DNA from: Acidobacteriaceae bacterium
GTDB taxonomy: Bacteria > Acidobacteriota > Terriglobia > Terriglobales > Acidobacteriaceae
Length of the DNA: 33,366 nt
Direction of reading: 5' to 3'
NCBI GenBank assembly: GCA_003142015.1
Contig: PLOI01000049.1
Location: forward strand, 121,863-155,228
Below, one piece after another: positions 8,841 to 28,902 of the stretch (within the stretch, counting starts at the first letter, position 1; each line of letters opens with the position of its first letter). Under the pieces are notes generated by a model. The model had not been told where the DNA came from. It did not search any database and saw only the letters and a program-made list of their open reading frames with translations. Both the position numbers and the translations under genes were made by a program.

Positions 8841-9134
8841 CGCCGCTCCTCTAGCGCCGTATTCAGCAGCCCGCTCTCAGGTTACCGCCTCGCCGCGCAT
8901 CCTGTCTCGCTGCCGCACACTGCTGCGTGCGCACCAAGCCCATTATGGAAGTAGACGCAATCCGGCGGGAATTCGCTTATCGGTCGCGTGGGGCCGCCAG
9001 CCTTGACTGCAGGCCCAGCACACAACCCCACTCGCCGCCTCTCTGCGCCCAAGCTGTTAAATTCTAAGCAGGATTGTGCCCATTTCGACCCTCATGCACC
9101 CCTGCCGGGGCGCGCACCCAAAGGAAATTCATCT

Positions 9135-10253
9135 ATGTTTCACACCACTGAAGACCTCCGCATCAAATGGACCAAAGTCGTCCTCCCTCCTGTATTCCTT
9201 GAGGAAGAGCGCCCCGTCAGCGAGGCGGCCTCGGCCACCATCTTCGACGCCCGCAGCGAAATCTCCGCCATCCTCAACGGCCAGGACACGCGGCTGCTGG
9301 TTATCGCTGGCCCCTGCTCCATTCACGACACCAAGGCCGCGCGCGAGTACGCCGCCCTGCTGAAATCCGCAATTGACGAGTTTTCCGCCGATCTGCGCAT
9401 CTTCATGCGCGTCTACTTCGAGAAGCCCCGCACCATCGTCGGATGGAAGGGTCTCATCAACGATCCCTATCTCGACCAGTCCTACAAGATCAACGACGGC
9501 CTGCGCCTGGCGCGCCATCTGCTGCTTGACCTGGCCGAGATGGGCGTGCCCGCCGGAACCGAGTTCCTCGACATGATTTCGCCCCAGTACATCGCCGGAC
9601 TGGTCAGTTGGGGAGCTATCGGCGCGCGCACCACCGAGAGCCAGGTTCATCGCCAACTGGTCAGCGGCGTCTCCTGCCCTGTGGGCTTCAAAAACGGCAC
9701 CTCCGGCGACGTGCAGATCGCCATCGACGCGGTGCTCTCCGCCGCTCGCTCCCACACCTTTTTGGGCCACACCAAATACGGCCAGTCGGCCATCTTCGTA
9801 ACTACGGGAAATCCTGATTGCCACATCATCCTGCGCGGCGGCCGCAAGACGGTGAACTACACGGCGGAGAGCGTGGCTCAGACCGCGGCGCTGATGGAAC
9901 AAGCTGGCCTGCCGCCGCGCATCATGATCGATTTCTCCCACGCCAACAGCAACAAGGACTATCGCCGCCAGGCCATCGTCTGCCACGATGTAGCCAGCCA
10001 GATCGCTGGCAGCAACGGCAAGGGCGATAAACGCATAATCGGCGTAATGATTGAGAGCAATCTGGTCGCAGGCTCGCAGAGGCTCGACAAACTTGTTGAA
10101 GGCCAGCCACTCGTCTACGGCCAGAGCGTCACAGACGGCTGCATCGACTGGAAGGAAACCCACGCCCTGTTAGCCGAGTTAGCCGCCGCCGTCCGGGCAA
10201 GACGCAGCGGCGGTGGCCCGCTCATCAACCCCGAAAGTAACCCTGTGACTTGA
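9135..10253 (+). CDS. aroG: 3-deoxy-7-phosphoheptulonate (DAHP) synthase, class I
   Basis: The first enzyme of the shikimate pathway, condensing phosphoenolpyruvate with erythrose 4-phosphate. The protein has 372 residues, slightly longer than the E. coli enzymes. Diagnostic blocks are visible: VIAGPCSIHD at 57-65 with metal ligand Cys61, RVYFEKPRTIVGWKGLINDP, GARTTESQVHR, GFKNGTSGD, HIILRGG, MIDFSHANSNKDY and GVMIESNLVAGSQ. AAGGAAA lies 7 nt before the chosen ATG, and a longer upstream reading frame has no family similarity. The isoform (AroF, AroG or AroH type, with different feedback inhibitors) cannot be decided by eye. It lies 3.3 kb from aroDE, so two enzymes of one pathway sit close but not in one operon. 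Confidence 0.95.
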   Translation: MFHTTEDLRIKWTKVVLPPVFLEEERPVSEAASATIFDARSEISAILNGQDTRLLVIAGPCSIHDTKAAREYAALLKSAIDEFSADLRIFMRVYFEKPRTIVGWKGLINDPYLDQSYKINDGLRLARHLLLDLAEMGVPAGTEFLDMISPQYIAGLVSWGAIGARTTESQVHRQLVSGVSCPVGFKNGTSGDVQIAIDAVLSAARSHTFLGHTKYGQSAIFVTTGNPDCHIILRGGRKTVNYTAESVAQTAALMEQAGLPPRIMIDFSHANSNKDYRRQAIVCHDVASQIAGSNGKGDKRIIGVMIESNLVAGSQRLDKLVEGQPLVYGQSVTDGCIDWKETHALLAELAAAVRARRSGGGPLINPESNPVT

Positions 10254-10259
10254 GAAGCT

Positions 10260-10296
10260 GTGCCCCGTTCATCGCGGCTCTATCGCGATGAGCGGG
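10260..10296. repeat. REP-like palindrome, copy B0 (upstream of RAYT fragment)
   Basis: GTGC at 10260-10263 is followed by a 13-bp stem, CCCGTTCATCGCG (10264-10276) with CGCGATGAGCGGG (10284-10296), and a 7-nt loop. Pair 5 is a T-G wobble, as in the copies at 10386 and 28855. It lies 6 nt after the DAHP synthase stop codon, so it could also act as a weak terminator, although no T-run follows. Confidence 0.55.
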
Positions 10297-10319
10297 TTGT
10301 AGCGAGCTATGATGGGGCC

Positions 10320-10400
10320 ATGCCGTATGGTCTGAAACGGTTCCAGAAGGCGGATGCTCTTCACTTCATCACTTTCAGTTGCCGGGTGCCCCATCCTTGA
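10320..10400 (+). pseudogene. 5' fragment of REP-associated tyrosine transposase (RAYT, IS200-like)
   Basis: An ATG frame encodes MPYGLKRFQKADALHFITFS followed by Cys21. This closely resembles the N-terminus of RAYT proteins (TnpA-REP, HUH/Y1 transposase superfamily), where the HFITFSC strand opens the catalytic fold. After the Cys codon the similarity ends, the frame enters a REP-like palindrome whose GTGC starts at 10386, and a TGA stops it at 10398-10400. The catalytic HUH motif and tyrosine are absent, so the gene is dead. A full RAYT would be roughly 150-250 residues. A second palindrome ends 23 nt before the start codon, so the fragment is bracketed by elements of one family. Confidence 0.68.
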
Positions 10401-10433
10401 ATCGTTTTTTGATTCAAGGGTGGGAGACCACGA
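10386..10433. repeat. REP-like palindrome, copy B (inside RAYT scar)
   Basis: GTGC at 10386-10389 is followed by a 14-bp stem, CCCATCCTTGAATC (10390-10403) with GATTCAAGGGTGGG (10411-10424), and a 7-nt T-rich loop. Pair 5 is a T-G wobble. The right flank AGACCACGA matches the flank of the copy at 28855 in all but one base. Confidence 0.75.
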
Positions 10434-10832
10434 TCTCATCAGGCGTCTGCCCCATCGCAAGTGGTTTGCCGAAGATTATTCTCCCTTGGCGCACACTGGC
10501 AGATGGAAGGAATGAACATTCAATCCCTCATCGATCCGATCTGTCAATAATCCTCCCGGTTTATACCCCCCGGAGCACCCCCTACCCCTCCCTATACCCC
10601 TGGGGTATAAATTCCCCTCAAAACATTGCAGATTATTTTTAACCCATTTGAAATCAATGCCGCTTGAAAAACTCTTGGCCCGAATTCTCCCACATGGCGA
10701 GATTTGGCCCCTGAAAATCACCGGAAAAATCCGTTTTTCGCCAAAAGACGCCCCCGAAGCATCGCTCCAGCGCCTGCACGCTAACCCGCTATGATGGTCA
10801 CCAGCGCAGAACGAGGCGGCGCAAACCCATCC
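10434..10832. other. Intergenic region, no gene seen
   Basis: About 400 nt without a supported gene between the RAYT scar and lpxB. The composition is more A/T-rich than the flanking genes. It holds C-rich stretches and the palindrome at 10593-10609. Short frames here have no ribosome site or family similarity. Confidence 0.6.
10593..10609. promoter_or_regulatory. Perfect palindrome TATACCCC-T-GGGGTATA, possible operator
   Basis: Two 8-nt arms meet around a single central base. A further half-site, TATACCCC, occurs at about 10562-10569. Two spaced TATACCCC half-sites plus a dyad suggest a DNA-binding protein site, about 225 nt before the lpxB start. The regulator is unknown. Confidence 0.35.
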
Positions 10833-14038: not shown

Positions 14039-14185
14039 AGCCTGCCGATCCTGACGCGCAAAATATCGTCCCGCACATTCCCGTTTTGATACGCATTTTC
14101 GATTCTGAACGCACCCCCTTCAATCTCCCAATAAGTTCTGGTTTTCGAGTTGCGGCCCATCACGCGCGCTGCCGATTATCTCATC

Positions 14186-17100
14186 ATGAAACTGCTGCGT
14201 TCCATCGTCCGGGGCCTGTTGTTTGTTGCATTGAACCTTGCAGTCGCGGCCGCATTCGCTGCGCCGCGCGATTCTGCCGCGTCGCAAGAGGCCGCGCCGC
14301 GCGTTCAAGGCGCCGCCGATGACGCCGTGCGCGTAACTCTTCACGGCAACATTCACCCGCTGATCCGGGCTGCGGTTGGTAAGGCCGGGACAGCCCAGGC
14401 GAGCGTGTCCCAATCCGCAACCGACCTGGGCGCGGTCGAGGATTCCTTGCCCACCGGCCGGATGCTGCTCTTGCTGCAGCGTTCCTCGCAGCAGGAGGCG
14501 GCGCTCACAGATTTCATTCAGGCCGCGCACACGCCGGGCAGTTCATCTTTTCATCAGTGGCTCACCCCGGCGGAATTTGGCCGCCTTTACGGACCGACCA
14601 ACTCGGACGTGGCGGCCGTAACCGCCTGGCTGGAGTCGCACGGACTCACCATCAACCAGGTTCATGCCGGGCGTGTGGCGATTGAGTTCTCCGGAACCGC
14701 GGGCCAGGTGAGCGAAGCCTTCCAAACTCAGATTCACCGCTATCTGGTGAACGGCGAGACGCATCTGGCCAACGCAACCGATCCATCGATTCCCGCCGCG
14801 CTTGCTCCGGTCATCGCCGGCCTTGCTCCGCTGAACGACTTCCAGCCGCAGCCGCGCCTGAAGGTGCTGGGGCAGGCGCAGTTCAACGCTAAGACCCACA
14901 AGGCCACGCCTCAATGGACTTATCCGGAGGGCAGCGGGATCGTCTTCGTGGTAGCGCCGGGCGATTTTGCCACGCAGTATGACATCAACTCGGTCTACAA
15001 ATCCGGCATCACTGGCACAGGGCAGTCGATCGCCATCGTCAGCGAATCGAATGTGGACCTGAGCCTGGTTCAGGCCTACCAAAGTCTCTTTGGGCTGGGC
15101 GCGAATTTGCCCACGGTGGTGGTTGACGGCAGCGACCCCGGCCAGAACAGTGCGGCCACTGAGGCTTACCTCGACCTTGAGCTTGCCGGCTCGGTTGCGC
15201 CCGGTGCAACAGTCATGCTCTACACCTCGGGCGGCACGGCTCTGACCAACGGTCTCGCCTTGGCCGCGATGCGCGCGGTCGAAGACGATTTGGCCGGGGT
15301 CATCAGCGCCAGCTACGGCGAGTGCGAGATGGAGTTGGGCCAGAGCGGCAATGTTTTCTGGAACGCACTCTGGGAGCAGGCCGCGGCGCAGGGGCAGACG
15401 GTTTTCGTCTCCACGGGTGACGGCGGCTCGGCCGGCTGCGACAACTTCGACACGCAGCAGGTGGCATACGGCGGACTCCAGGTCAACGGCATCGCCTCCA
15501 CGCCCTACAACGTTGCCGTCGGCGGCACCGACTTCTACTACAGCCAGTACGCCGGCTCGTCTTCGGCCATCGTCGCGCAGTTGGGCACTTATTGGTCCAC
15601 CACTTCCACCATCTTGCCCGCCATCTCGCTCCTCAAGACCATTCCCGAACAGGCCTGGAACGACTTTTTCGGCTTCAACCTCTACGACAACGGCAATCCC
15701 GCCAACCAGCCCAGCGAATTAATCGTTGGCGGCGGAGGCGGCGCCAGCAGCGCGGCGCTCTACACTAGCGGCGCAGCCACAGGCTACCCCAAGCCGGCCT
15801 GGCAGGCGGGAACCGGCGTCCCAGCCGACAAGGTGCGCGACCTGCCCGATCTTTCCCTGTTTGCCGCCAATGGCTACAACTACAGCTTCTATCCCATCTG
15901 CGCAAATCCCGGCGACTGCTCCAGCGCAAACCTGACCTCCAGCGGTGCGGTGGTTATCACCGGCGTGGGCGGCACCTCCGCCAGTTCCCCGGCCATGGCC
16001 GCTATCCAGTCCCTCATCAACCAGAGCACCGGCGCCTGGGCCGGGCAAGCCGACTTCATTTACTACCCGCTAGCCGCCAAGCAAAAGACGGCTTTTCATG
16101 ACGTGACCGTGGGTGGCAATCAGGCGCCCTGCTACCCCGGCACAACCAACTGCGTGGCCGGTTCCTCGGCCTCGAACTCCAGCGGCTACTTCGTCGAAAG
16201 CGGCTACGCCGCCGGCACGGGCTACGACCAGGCCACCGGCCTGGGCTCAGTGGACGTGGCCAACCTGATCAAGTACTGGAACACGGTCGCGTTCACTCCC
16301 ACCACCACCACCCTCAGCGTAAGCCCCACCAGCCTTGCCCACGGCAAGACGGCCACCATCACTGGCACGGTAGCGCCCACCAGCGGTTCGGGCACGCCCA
16401 GCGGCGCGGTCAGCCTCACGGGTAACGACGGCATCACCCACTACGCGGCTATTGACGACGTTGCCCTGGCTGCGGGCAGCATTTACGCGCTGGTGGACAA
16501 TCTGCCCGGAGGAACCTATCAGCTCACCGCCGACTACGGGGGCGATGGAACCTTCGCCGCCAGCAAATCCGCGCCTGTCACCATCACCGTCACCCCGGAA
16601 AACAATACCCTGGTCGCCACCGGCTGGGCATGGAATCCCTACGACCTCAACCTTTACCAGCTCTCATCCGGCATTACTCTGCCCTACGGAGCGCAAATCT
16701 TCCTGGATGCGCTGCCACAGAGCGGCAATGCCACCATCACTGCTGAGCCCACTCCGGCCACCGGAACCGTCACCTTCACTGACAAGCTGGGTTCTGCGAC
16801 CGTCACATCGACGCAGCCGCTTAACACGGCTGGCGTTGCCGAGTGGTCCACCGGCGTCTTCGCGCCCGGCAGCCACGCGCTCAGCGAGTCCTACTCCGGC
16901 GATCCGAGTTATAACCCCTCCACTGCCCCCGCCGCTGCTGCGTTTACCGTGATTCAGGGCAGCACCAGCCTCACCGTCAAGCCGCTGGTCACCTCCGTCG
17001 CCGCCGGAGCCAGCGTGGCCGTCGATGTGGTGCTGGCCACCGGCTACCTTTCCCTCTACGGAACCTTGCCCGGCGGCAACGTCACCGTAACCCTGGGCAG

Positions 17101-20100
17101 TCAATCAATCACCGCCCCCTGGCAACCCTTCGGCGCAACCGGCAACGCGAGCCTCGAGGCGGTGGTCACTTTCACCAACGTCCCGGCGGGCATTCTGCCT
17201 CTCATGGCTTACTACGCCGGCGACAGCAACTGGCTGGGCAGTGCCGCTAACGGTGGAACCGTCATCTCCCTCGCCAGCAAGCTCACCCCCACCGTATTGC
17301 TCGCTTCGAGTTCCGCCAACCCCGCACCCGGCCAGACCTTTATTCTCACGGCCACCGTCTCCGGACCCGTGGGCAAGCCAACCCCCACCGGCACTATAGC
17401 CTTCCTCTCCAACGGCCAGAGCTTCGACACGTTTGTCAATCTCAGCAGCGGCACGGCCACCATCGCCATTCCCGGCTACTCCGCCGCCAATGGAATCAAT
17501 ATTTTCACCGCTCTCTACCAGGGCGACGCCAACTACAACTCTGCCGCGTCCAATGCGGTGAACGTCACGGTCGCTCAATCGGATTTCTCCCTCACCACGC
17601 AGAGCGCCGAGGTGCAAATCTCCCCTTCCGGGTCGGGTGTCAGCTCTCTCGCGCTTTCGCCCATCAACGGTTTTAGCGGAACCGTCACGCTCACCGCCAG
17701 CGCGCCCGCCGCCATCACGGTGACTCCAACCGCGGCCTCTCTGGCCCTCAGCGCGCCCGCCACTGATGTGCTCACGATCAAGGTCGCCGCCGCCGCAGCT
17801 GCTGGAATTTATCCGCTCACCATCACAGCCAGCGGCGGCGGACACCTTCACACTGCGCAGATACTGGTTCAGGTTCTGACGGTTGCCGCGCCCGTTTTTT
17901 CTCCCGCGGCTGGTGCCTATGCTACCTCGCAACAGGTTACGCTCACTGACTCGACGGCCGGCGCAACCATTTACTACACCACCAATGGAGCTATTCCTAC
18001 CGCCTCCTCCACAAAGTACACCGGCGCAATAACAGTCGGGGCGACAGAGACCATTCAGGCCATCGCCGTGGTCAGCGGATTTGCGCCATCCTCCGTGACC
18101 TCGACTGCTTACACCATCATGACTCCGGCCGCCACACCCATCTTCTCGCCGGTCACAGGGATCTACTCCTCGGTGCAGACGGTGGCCATCACCGATCTGA
18201 CTCCCGGCGCGAAGATTTACTTCACCACCAATGGCACGGCGCCCACGACCAGCTCGACTCTCTACGCCGGGCCCATTACCGTCTCTGCCACAGAGACGCT
18301 GGAGGCTATCGCCACAGCCAGCGGCTCTTTGCAAAGCGCGACAGGCTCCGCCGTTTACATTATCAACATGGCCGCCAACGGGTGCCCCGCCGGCAGCGGC
18401 AGTTGCGTTGATAACTTCACAGGCTCTTCCGGCACGCTGCTTCCCACTTACAACTCGAAGTGGACGCTGGCTGGAGGCACTAACTCGATCTACACCACCG
18501 GCTCCAACAGCGCGGAGATATCCGGCTCGGCCAGCGCCGTCTACTACTACGCTGCATCTACCTCGGACACCGCGCAGATTACCCTTGCTCCCTCCAGCAC
18601 CACAATTGGCTACGAAAAACTGGCGTGCGTGAGAGTATCCTCGGGCATACCGGGATATTGCGTAGGCTTCAGCCCGGTATCAAGCGGTAACTACACCGCA
18701 TGTTACGTGATGAAGAATTTCAAGTACCTGGGCGGCGGAAATTGCGGAACCGTATCGGCAACCGCAAGCCACGCTCTCACCCTGGTCGCGTCTGGAACTT
18801 CCACTGTCACATTATCCATCTATGTTGACGGAGTTCTCAAAGGCACCGTGACGGATAGCTCCAACCCCTACACCGTGGCTGGGTCGGGATTTGGATTGCA
18901 AGGGGACGGCACACCCGCCGACAGCATCGTGAACGAATGGCAGGATTACTCCGGCGCTTCGCCGGTGGCTACGCCCACCTTCAGCCCTACAGCCGGCGCA
19001 TATACTTCGGCGCAGACAGTGAGCATCAGTGACACCACTCCGGGCGCAACCATCTATTACACCACCAACGGCACCGCGCCCTCAACCAGCTCGACCCTCT
19101 ACGCCGGAGCGATTATCGTCTCGACTTCAGAGACGCTCGAGGCTATTGCCACAGCCCCCGGCTATCTGCAAAGCGCGGCGGCATCAGCGGCCTTCAACAT
19201 CAATCTGGCCGTCGTTGGATGTCCCTCGGGAAGCGGCAGTTGCTTTGATAACTTCACGGGCTCTTCCGGCACGCTGCTGCCCACTTATAACTCCCAATGG
19301 GTGCTGGCGGGAGGCACTAACTCGATCTACACCACCGGCTCTGGCAGCGTGGAGATATCCGGATCGGCCAGCGCCGTCTATTACTACGCCGGCTCCGCAT
19401 CGAATACCTCGCAGATTACGCTCGCCCCATCCAGCGCCACCATAGGCTACGAGAAGCTGGCCTGCGTAAGAGTCTCCGCGGGCATTCCCGGATATTGCGT
19501 TGGATTCAGCGCGGCATCGAGCGGGAACTACACCGCCTGTTATGTGATGAAAAATTTCAAGTACCTGGGTGGCGGAAATTGCGGAACGATTTCCGCAGCC
19601 GTGAGCCACACACTCACGCTGGTCGCATCGGGAACTTCCACTGTGACCTTATCCATCTATGTCGATGGCGTCCTGAAAGGAACGGTCACGGACAGTTCCA
19701 GCCCGTATACCGTGGCAGGCTCGGGATTTGGGTTGCAGGGAGATGGCGCGCCCGCCGACAGCATCGTGAATGAATGGCAGGATTACAGCGGTAGTTCGCC
19801 GGCCCCAAGCGAATGTCCGACGGGCAGCGGCAGTTGCGCCGATAGCTTCACAGGCTCGTCCGGCACGCTCCTGCCTACTTACAACTCCCAATGGGCGCTG
19901 GCGGGAGGCACTAACTCCATCTACACCACCGGCTCCAACAGCGCGGAGATATCCGGATCGGCCAGCGCCGTCTATTACTACGCCGGCTCCGCATCGAATA
20001 CCTCGCAGATTACCCTTGCTCCATCCGGCGCCACCATCGGCTACGAAAAGCTGGCCTGCGTAAGAGTCTCCTCTGGCATTCCCGGATATTGCGTGGGTTT

Positions 20101-20488
20101 TAGCGCGGCGTCGGGCGGGAACTACACGGCTTGTTATGTGATGAAGAATTTCAAGTATCTCGGCGGCGGAAATTGCGGAACGGTCTCTGCAACCGCGAGC
20201 CACACCCTTACTCTGGTCGCGTCTGGGACATCCACTGTCACCTTGTCCGTCTATGTGGATGGAGTCCTTAAGGGAACCGTCACGGATAGCTCCAGCCCTT
20301 ATACCGTGGCTGGCTCGGGATTTGGATTGCAGGGGGATGGCACGCCCGCCGACAGCATTGTGAACGAATGGCAGGATTACACCGGCAGTTCGACGGTGTC
20401 CACGCCTACCCATCTCCCAGCCAGCACATACAACCCGGCGCAAAGAGTACCGATGAGCCCCAGGATATTGTCTGCTGAGACTAACTAA
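14186..20488 (+). CDS. Giant secreted S53 (sedolisin/kumamolisin) protease with Ig-like, chitobiase-C and triplicated modules
   Basis: A 2100-residue secreted serine-carboxyl peptidase. It has a signal peptide (1-26), a pro-kumamolisin propeptide (about 50-225, with HQWLTPAEFGRLYGP) and a catalytic domain (about 255-700). Catalytic residues are Glu326 and Asp330 (TEAYLDLE), Asp412 (STGDGGSAG) and Ser598 (GGTSASSPAMAA). The calcium site shows as FHDVTVGGN and GYDQATGLGSVD. Then come about four Ig-like domains (705-1235), two chitobiase/hexosaminidase C-terminal-type domains, and a series of 191-residue modules with one more such domain between the first two. No C-terminal anchor is seen. Family members digest proteins at acidic pH; the added modules probably bind polymers or surfaces. 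The ATG was chosen over an upstream TTG. Confidence 0.93.
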   Translation: MKLLRSIVRGLLFVALNLAVAAAFAAPRDSAASQEAAPRVQGAADDAVRVTLHGNIHPLIRAAVGKAGTAQASVSQSATDLGAVEDSLPTGRMLLLLQRSSQQEAALTDFIQAAHTPGSSSFHQWLTPAEFGRLYGPTNSDVAAVTAWLESHGLTINQVHAGRVAIEFSGTAGQVSEAFQTQIHRYLVNGETHLANATDPSIPAALAPVIAGLAPLNDFQPQPRLKVLGQAQFNAKTHKATPQWTYPEGSGIVFVVAPGDFATQYDINSVYKSGITGTGQSIAIVSESNVDLSLVQAYQSLFGLGANLPTVVVDGSDPGQNSAATEAYLDLELAGSVAPGATVMLYTSGGTALTNGLALAAMRAVEDDLAGVISASYGECEMELGQSGNVFWNALWEQAAAQGQTVFVSTGDGGSAGCDNFDTQQVAYGGLQVNGIASTPYNVAVGGTDFYYSQYAGSSSAIVAQLGTYWSTTSTILPAISLLKTIPEQAWNDFFGFNLYDNGNPANQPSELIVGGGGGASSAALYTSGAATGYPKPAWQAGTGVPADKVRDLPDLSLFAANGYNYSFYPICANPGDCSSANLTSSGAVVITGVGGTSASSPAMAAIQSLINQSTGAWAGQADFIYYPLAAKQKTAFHDVTVGGNQAPCYPGTTNCVAGSSASNSSGYFVESGYAAGTGYDQATGLGSVDVANLIKYWNTVAFTPTTTTLSVSPTSLAHGKTATITGTVAPTSGSGTPSGAVSLTGNDGITHYAAIDDVALAAGSIYALVDNLPGGTYQLTADYGGDGTFAASKSAPVTITVTPENNTLVATGWAWNPYDLNLYQLSSGITLPYGAQIFLDALPQSGNATITAEPTPATGTVTFTDKLGSATVTSTQPLNTAGVAEWSTGVFAPGSHALSESYSGDPSYNPSTAPAAAAFTVIQGSTSLTVKPLVTSVAAGASVAVDVVLATGYLSLYGTLPGGNVTVTLGSQSITAPWQPFGATGNASLEAVVTFTNVPAGILPLMAYYAGDSNWLGSAANGGTVISLASKLTPTVLLASSSANPAPGQTFILTATVSGPVGKPTPTGTIAFLSNGQSFDTFVNLSSGTATIAIPGYSAANGINIFTALYQGDANYNSAASNAVNVTVAQSDFSLTTQSAEVQISPSGSGVSSLALSPINGFSGTVTLTASAPAAITVTPTAASLALSAPATDVLTIKVAAAAAAGIYPLTITASGGGHLHTAQILVQVLTVAAPVFSPAAGAYATSQQVTLTDSTAGATIYYTTNGAIPTASSTKYTGAITVGATETIQAIAVVSGFAPSSVTSTAYTIMTPAATPIFSPVTGIYSSVQTVAITDLTPGAKIYFTTNGTAPTTSSTLYAGPITVSATETLEAIATASGSLQSATGSAVYIINMAANGCPAGSGSCVDNFTGSSGTLLPTYNSKWTLAGGTNSIYTTGSNSAEISGSASAVYYYAASTSDTAQITLAPSSTTIGYEKLACVRVSSGIPGYCVGFSPVSSGNYTACYVMKNFKYLGGGNCGTVSATASHALTLVASGTSTVTLSIYVDGVLKGTVTDSSNPYTVAGSGFGLQGDGTPADSIVNEWQDYSGASPVATPTFSPTAGAYTSAQTVSISDTTPGATIYYTTNGTAPSTSSTLYAGAIIVSTSETLEAIATAPGYLQSAAASAAFNINLAVVGCPSGSGSCFDNFTGSSGTLLPTYNSQWVLAGGTNSIYTTGSGSVEISGSASAVYYYAGSASNTSQITLAPSSATIGYEKLACVRVSAGIPGYCVGFSAASSGNYTACYVMKNFKYLGGGNCGTISAAVSHTLTLVASGTSTVTLSIYVDGVLKGTVTDSSSPYTVAGSGFGLQGDGAPADSIVNEWQDYSGSSPAPSECPTGSGSCADSFTGSSGTLLPTYNSQWALAGGTNSIYTTGSNSAEISGSASAVYYYAGSASNTSQITLAPSGATIGYEKLACVRVSSGIPGYCVGFSAASGGNYTACYVMKNFKYLGGGNCGTVSATASHTLTLVASGTSTVTLSVYVDGVLKGTVTDSSSPYTVAGSGFGLQGDGTPADSIVNEWQDYTGSSTVSTPTHLPASTYNPAQRVPMSPRILSAETN
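18383..18955 (+). repeat. 573-nt intragenic repeat, module R1
   Basis: The first of three in-frame copies encoding 191 residues, from CPAGSGSC to NEWQDYSG. It includes FTGSSGTLLPTYNS near the start, several cysteines, and IYVDGVLKGTV typical of a LamG/concanavalin-like sandwich. The fold assignment is inference. Confidence 0.85.
19220..19792 (+). repeat. 573-nt intragenic repeat, module R2
   Basis: The second copy has exactly the same length as R1 and differs by scattered substitutions without indels. It is separated from R1 by a chitobiase-C-type domain (about 18967-19203). Confidence 0.85.
19814..20386 (+). repeat. 573-nt intragenic repeat, module R3
   Basis: The third copy is again 573 nt. 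It follows R2 after only 21 nt, without an intervening chitobiase-C-type domain, and is followed by a degraded start of one. Confidence 0.85.
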
Positions 20489-28854: not shown

Positions 28855-28902
28855 GTGCCCCATCCTTTCGCTTTTTTCTGGCGAAAGGGTGGGAAACCAC
28901 GA
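28855..28902. repeat. REP-like palindrome, copy C
   Basis: GTGC at 28855-28858 is followed by a 13-bp stem, CCCATCCTTTCGC (28859-28871) with GCGAAAGGGTGGG (28881-28893), and a 9-nt loop. Pair 5 is a T-G wobble. The right flank is AAACCACGA. It lies between the DUF3467 gene and the ribosome site of the glycosyltransferase gene. Confidence 0.75.

Follow-up and report, generated by a model that had tools for sequence, protein, structure and literature searches.

The DNA considered here, called the window, is a stretch of 33,366 nucleotides within a 163-kb contig (C124) of an Acidobacteriaceae draft genome (3.42 Mb in 167 contigs), and it contains no N bases. Downstream of an aroG-type gene lies the start of a RAYT (REP-associated tyrosine transposase) gene, placed between two hairpin repeats. 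The features, all on the + strand, are the following:

8988 to 10253, +: ORF of an aroG-type DAHP synthase (NCBIfam aroFGH TIGR00034, 497 bits), with its final 13 codons and stop supplied by the element
10212 to 10319, +: left end and leader of a RAYT element, a family A unit (99.4% identity to C131 across 10212-10382; 108 nt at 99% to C146:10847-10954)
10264 to 10296, +: hairpin A, the cognate REP of the RAYT type, with a GTGC foot at 10260 (single-stranded DNA fold z -4.5 against 200 shuffles; also found before C131 and C12, and inverted after C131, C146 and C12)
10320 to 10382, +: RAYT gene, codons 1-21 (95% identity to the start of the C131 RAYT, which passes NF047646)
10380 to 10383, +: junction, where the bases TGC agree with the RAYT gene as well as with the sequence commonly found 5' of B repeats
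10386 to 10441, +: family B REP, non-cognate, with a GTGC foot, a hairpin at 10390-10424 and a tail conserved as far as about +17 (the pattern matches 72 times in the genome; fold z -5.1 against 200 shuffles; flank profile of 71 copies)

The ATG of the stub, at 10320, follows the stem of hairpin A after 23 nt. From it the reading frame runs MPYGLKRFQKADALHFITFSC and then RVPHP and a stop, 26 amino acids in total, the final five of which are read from the following repeat and do not belong to RAYT. The second hairpin sets in directly 3' of codon 21, with GTGCCCC at 10386. Both hairpins have the same orientation but belong to different families, and each folds more stably on the + strand than on the - strand (hairpin A, -15.3 versus -13.8 kcal/mol; hairpin B, -15.5 versus -12.8 kcal/mol). 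The 26-residue peptide matches no family in Pfam or NCBIfam, as expected at such a length, and the stub alone gives no match to NF047646, the NCBIfam RAYT model. A functional peptide was rejected on account of the absent family match and the repeat-derived terminal residues.

The upstream gene has been altered by the element, as aroG takes its last 13 codons and its stop from element sequence (10212-10253). Orthologous aroG genes (20 read) end about 1 to 8 residues past a RARR-like stretch, and the 13-codon tail of the window occurs in none of these 20. Judged by comparison with these orthologues, the element evidently replaced the aroG stop codon and added 13 codons. The genes aroG and lpxB are adjacent and in the same order, 218 to 4033 nt apart, in 20 loci that include the closest relative (G035); these loci were selected for nearness of both matches, and other arrangements exist (G004 and G010, opposite orientation).

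Several further features of the window stand apart from the stub. A third dispersed repeat, family C, occupies 10446-10790 just upstream of lpxB. An alignment of 13 copies contains strongly conserved blocks, has no Rfam match and shows no covariation as RNA; with a two-sided change in 1 of 22 predicted pairs, an RNA was rejected for this repeat. The search for structured RNA in the window returned only a tRNA, located elsewhere, at the gathering threshold, and weak matches at a relaxed one. The window also holds a second B repeat at 28855-28893 and an ORF of 2112 amino acids at 14150-20488.

The source element and the repeat at the break

The genome contains ten Y1_Tnp matches. Over residues 1-22, the stub peptide is 95% identical to the RAYT of C131 and 91% identical to those of C12 and C146. 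At the DNA level, 10212-10382 corresponds to the 5' part of the C131 element (99.4% identity over 171 nt), and C131 is the closest match of the window copy (170/173 identical). Similarity ends at 10382. A preliminary description of this DNA had recognised the opening 21 codons of a dead RAYT gene 23 nt after one palindrome, breaking off where a second begins, and had suggested that an intact relative might exist elsewhere in the genome. These points are borne out, as only the opening codons are present here and close full-length relatives are found at C131 and C146, both open, and at C12, which has a run of N.

The C131 element consists of a GGCAGGTGGC left end, hairpin A, the RAYT gene, an inverted hairpin A and a GGGCCACCTGCC right end; its inverted ends are GGCAGGTGGCCC, and the stop codon of its RAYT gene lies inside the inverted A hairpin. 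C131, C146 and C12 all carry A upstream and inverted A downstream, the upstream hairpin of C146 holding N, so the GTGC palindromes that the preliminary description proposed to look for at such flanks are there. Scores against NF047646 (cut-off 80) are 88.4 bits for C131, 112 for C130 and 99.8 for C124b. The foot of both A and B is GTGC, not GTAG or GTGG, and the classification is RAYT-like with a GTGC foot. The C131 and C146 RAYTs (L048:351-905 and L047, respectively) carry 14 extra residues (GSPAHELCALGWKP) directly after YIHRNP, an extension absent from C130 and from six relatives aligned end to end. Because C131 and C146 share these residues yet differ in their genomic surroundings, the C131-type element appears to have moved within the genome.

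Family B is defined by the pattern GTGCCCCATCCTT, a free inner stem and AAGGGTGGG. Exact matches number 72 genome-wide (27 forward, 45 reverse), and a reversed control pattern gives 0. Pairing and flank profiles were drawn from 71 of these copies, one with N being omitted. In the inner stem, 277 of 284 positions pair, against a maximum of 171 in 2000 shuffles; the T.G wobble of the outer stem is kept in 70/71 copies, at a position where the pattern searched for was restricted to G or A. Conservation of the unit spans about -12 to +17 around the hairpin. GC occupies positions -5,-4 in 31/71 copies versus 8.5% further upstream, independently of an A-rich 5' block (18/43 with the block, 13/28 without). 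This block is present in 43/71 copies and absent from 28/71, as well as from the window B.

B repeats lie on both sides of the C130 RAYT, inverted to each other (802-841 + and 1485-1524 -), and occur twice upstream of the RAYT C124b (C124:13.9 kb). Since these are other RAYTs, the second hairpin of the stub is not the cognate downstream repeat of its RAYT type. That both hairpins form one family, as had been proposed, was rejected, with A flanking C131, C146 and C12 and B flanking C130; the proposed link between palindrome and RAYT as cognate REP stands for hairpin A and fails for hairpin B. Intact RAYTs flanked by a different palindrome had been named as evidence against that link, and such flanks are found with respect to the second palindrome, while the first is cognate. 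The inverted right end GGCAGGTGGCCC was absent from 10383-10832 with up to 3 mismatches allowed, a search that finds about as many matches in the window as chance predicts (79 versus 67 expected) and returned no inverted match in that interval. The window piece is a RAYT copy that has lost its 3' part and adjoins a foreign REP; it is not an internal deletion with a cognate end on each side.

Accessible parts of the literature describe several systems with which this element can be compared. RAYT (TnpAREP) genes and their REPs form REPtrons, with GTAG or GTGG as the usual hairpin foot (PMC6006769; PMC8266576). The elements described here are alike in that full-length relatives pass the NCBIfam RAYT model, the flanking hairpins fit one strand better and the inner stems of B covary; they are unlike in having GTGC, or GTGG in some heads, as the foot. 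An acidobacterial group, TIRYT or TIRtron, has GGGGWSAS in the inverted repeat of many but not all members (PMC3733652). Shared features are a tyrosine transposase between long inverted ends, which C131 has as GGCAGGTGGC on the left and GGGCCACCTGCC on the right together with the inverted A hairpins, the occurrence in Acidobacteria, and ends that are also dispersed repeats. Unlike the TIRtrons so described, the C131 element (262-1013) lacks GGGGWSAS, both matches to this motif falling outside 262-1013. REPINs, inverted pairs of REPs (PMC3116915), likewise involve short hairpin repeats tied to a RAYT, whereas the window hairpins point in the same direction and come from two families. The remnant in the window belongs to a known kind, RAYT elements with features of the acidobacterial TIRtrons.

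Broken copies in this genome and its relatives

Twelve truncated A copies occur in the same genome and break at differing points, namely behind the hairpin, behind GTAGCGAGC, immediately 5' of the ATG (C146:10847), about 10 nt into the gene (C8) and 63 nt into it (the window). Read by eye, another REP head follows directly in 9 of the 12, the exceptions being C109, C96 and C138. Among 20 solitary A loci fetched from relatives, 18 gave a hairpin match and two gave none; a strict head motif lies within 160 nt of 8 of these 18 hairpins and is absent from the other 10.

Nineteen broken RAYT starts from ten genomes, a non-exhaustive set picked for short frames or short matches, were then classified by what lies at the break. 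A REP head, scored as the motif [AG]GGTG[CG]C no more than 6 nt from the break, is present in 9/19, from six genomes; with 74 occurrences in 39,492 nt of loci of this sort, themselves REP-rich, about 1% would be expected per break. Four units had been set aside before this count: G038 C42 and G063 C81, cut by contig ends, C146:10847 of the same genome, where the break precedes the ATG, and the second unit of G003 C69, at a contig end. The classes are:

Breaks at a REP head (9): the window, own C8, G027 C19, C23 and C198, G024 C51, G079 C20, G003 C69, G011 C8
Internal deletions or breaks running into inverted repeats (8): own C52, G024 C72, C27 and C160, G025 C13, G047 C159, G061 C168 and C92
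Neither class (2): G077 C211, G077 C37

The near-identical G024 copies C27 and C160 both lie at the end of a contig and could represent a single copy. At C52:22031-22296 (L271) a RAYT start is fused to a RAYT end with both cognate ends retained, a MITE-like internal deletion; in the window, the retention of both cognate ends that marks such deletions is not seen. In G003 C69 (L344), units made up of hairpin A and 37 nt of RAYT stand head to tail and run off the contig end.

Some breaks fall on common points: codon 21 in the window and in G027 C19 and C23, base 77-78 in G024 C51 and G079 C20, and base about 10-11 in own C8 and G011 C8. The codon-21 break would have arisen at least twice, perhaps three times, because the window copy is nearest to C131 of its own genome and the two G027 copies are as near to C155 as to each other (164/172 to each other; 161/173 and 164/172 to C155). 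As a wider motif, the codon-21 junction stays at chance level, with the pattern in 12/398 genomes and a reversed control in a similar number; among these pattern matches, only the window and G027 C19 are RAYT starts. In G027 C19, 28 nt bordering the copy on either side had the look of a target duplication; the idea was dropped because much of this flank is the tail of a REP type matched dozens of times in the G027 genome. One-ended transposition of the IS91 or Helitron type leaves one precise and one variable end, as the truncated copies also have; these are different HUH families, and the likeness is an analogy only.

How the junction may have formed

The favoured reading, which we consider probable, is that a truncated C131-type copy was joined at codon 21 to the head of a B repeat, REP heads being hot spots for joining. 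Its observed components are what each piece is, that the second hairpin is not cognate, that the right end is absent, the lengthening of aroG, and breaks anchored at heads in other genomes. A C131-type element, with GGCAGGTGGCCC as its left and GGGCCACCTGCC as its right end and, between them, hairpin A, the RAYT gene and an inverted hairpin A, would have inserted at the 3' end of aroG, replacing its stop. Its 3' part would have been lost in a join of codon 21 to the 5' edge, or head, of a family B REP, using up to three common bases (TGC). The locus would thus formerly have held more of the element. A head could act as a hot spot either if replication switches template at the hairpin or if a RAYT cleaves at the head and transfers a strand; we infer a deletion or a strand transfer at the REP head, with a RAYT as the putative agent of the cut. 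The deletion is not seen directly, because neither an empty site nor an intermediate was found. Hot spots for deletion or strand transfer are the most likely account of the REP heads, from a pattern in a selected sample and not a rate.

Other origins account for parts of the evidence. The preliminary description had an internal deletion joining the RAYT start to its own downstream REP, and deletions that keep both ends do exist (own C52, G047 C159); however, the downstream repeat of the intact relatives C131, C146 and C12 is an inverted A, here it is a B in direct orientation, and the right end is missing from 10383-10832, which leaves this origin disfavoured and very unlikely. A one-ended insertion would have placed a copy, exact at its left end and ragged at its 3' end, directly before an existing B repeat. 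The constant left and variable right ends of the A copies, and the tandem A-RAYT units abutting head to tail in G003 C69, would suit it. That the A-rich 5' block present in 43/71 copies is missing from the window B suits loss on both sides of the joint instead, but 28/71 copies also lack it, and on balance such an insertion seems unlikely. Alternatively, the B repeat could have inserted into the RAYT gene, the remainder being lost later. Its sharp edge at the break and the GC immediately before it, as in many B copies, would agree with this, yet no RAYT remnant lies downstream of B in the window, and none was seen in the inspected stretches of G027 C19 and C23; this order of events is quite improbable.

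An assembly chimera would have to be reckoned with in a draft genome of 167 contigs, in which N runs stand beside repeats in C146 and C12 and 171 nt are common to the window and C131. Against it, the aroG-lpxB neighbours keep the same order in at least 20 relatives including the closest, G035 (loci chosen for nearness), the same kind of junction occurs in five other genomes and the window has no N. An artefact of this kind is extremely improbable.

Within the favoured reading, the bases at the join bear on how it was made. The junction reads TTGC-CGG-GTGCCCC, and the break falls at the GC that is enriched 5' of B copies. This fits a joint made by a RAYT, and the one to three common bases (GC or TGC) may also be plain microhomology. 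In vitro, according to the accessible text of PMC8266576, cleavage 5' of a REP is known chemistry, as is transfer of the strand to a free 3' end, the cleaved strand being held by the enzyme via its 5' end and open to attack by an added 3' end. In the same source, changing the foot from GTAG to GTGG shifted cleavage by the Marinomonas enzyme to CC, and attempts to change the cleavage sites of the E. coli and Stenotrophomonas enzymes failed (PMC8266576). Extending the guide rule (GTAG with CT, GTGG with CC), which was shown for one enzyme (Marinomonas), a GTGC foot should pair with GC. It is a tentative idea, possible but less than likely, that RAYTs truncate copies of their own gene: the enzyme would cut a REP head and keep hold of it by its 5' end, and a 3' end located in a RAYT gene close by would attack the head. 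Stubs of RAYT genes joined to REPs would, on this view, be fossils left in the genome by the cleavage and strand transfer that are known in vitro.

Pseudogenised RAYTs with deletions are marked in published tables (PMC3686654). In the accessible parts of the open literature searched (including PMC6006769, PMC3733652, PMC3686654, PMC3116915, PMC8266576 and PMC2817692), no description was found of RAYT stubs ending at REP heads, and none of natural products of RAYT cleavage or strand transfer. The question addressed by such stubs is how REPs spread and how RAYTs act on DNA in cells, cleavage and strand transfer being established in vitro. Should the breaks be no more than microhomology deletions, the locus would amount to ordinary decay of a mobile gene. 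If confirmed, stubs that a repeat borders sharply on one side, some with the identical break point in different species, would be natural products of the RAYT reaction, and a testable GC cleavage site would be predicted for GTGC-footed hairpins. Such repeats may mark the spots at which copies of RAYT genes are shortened.
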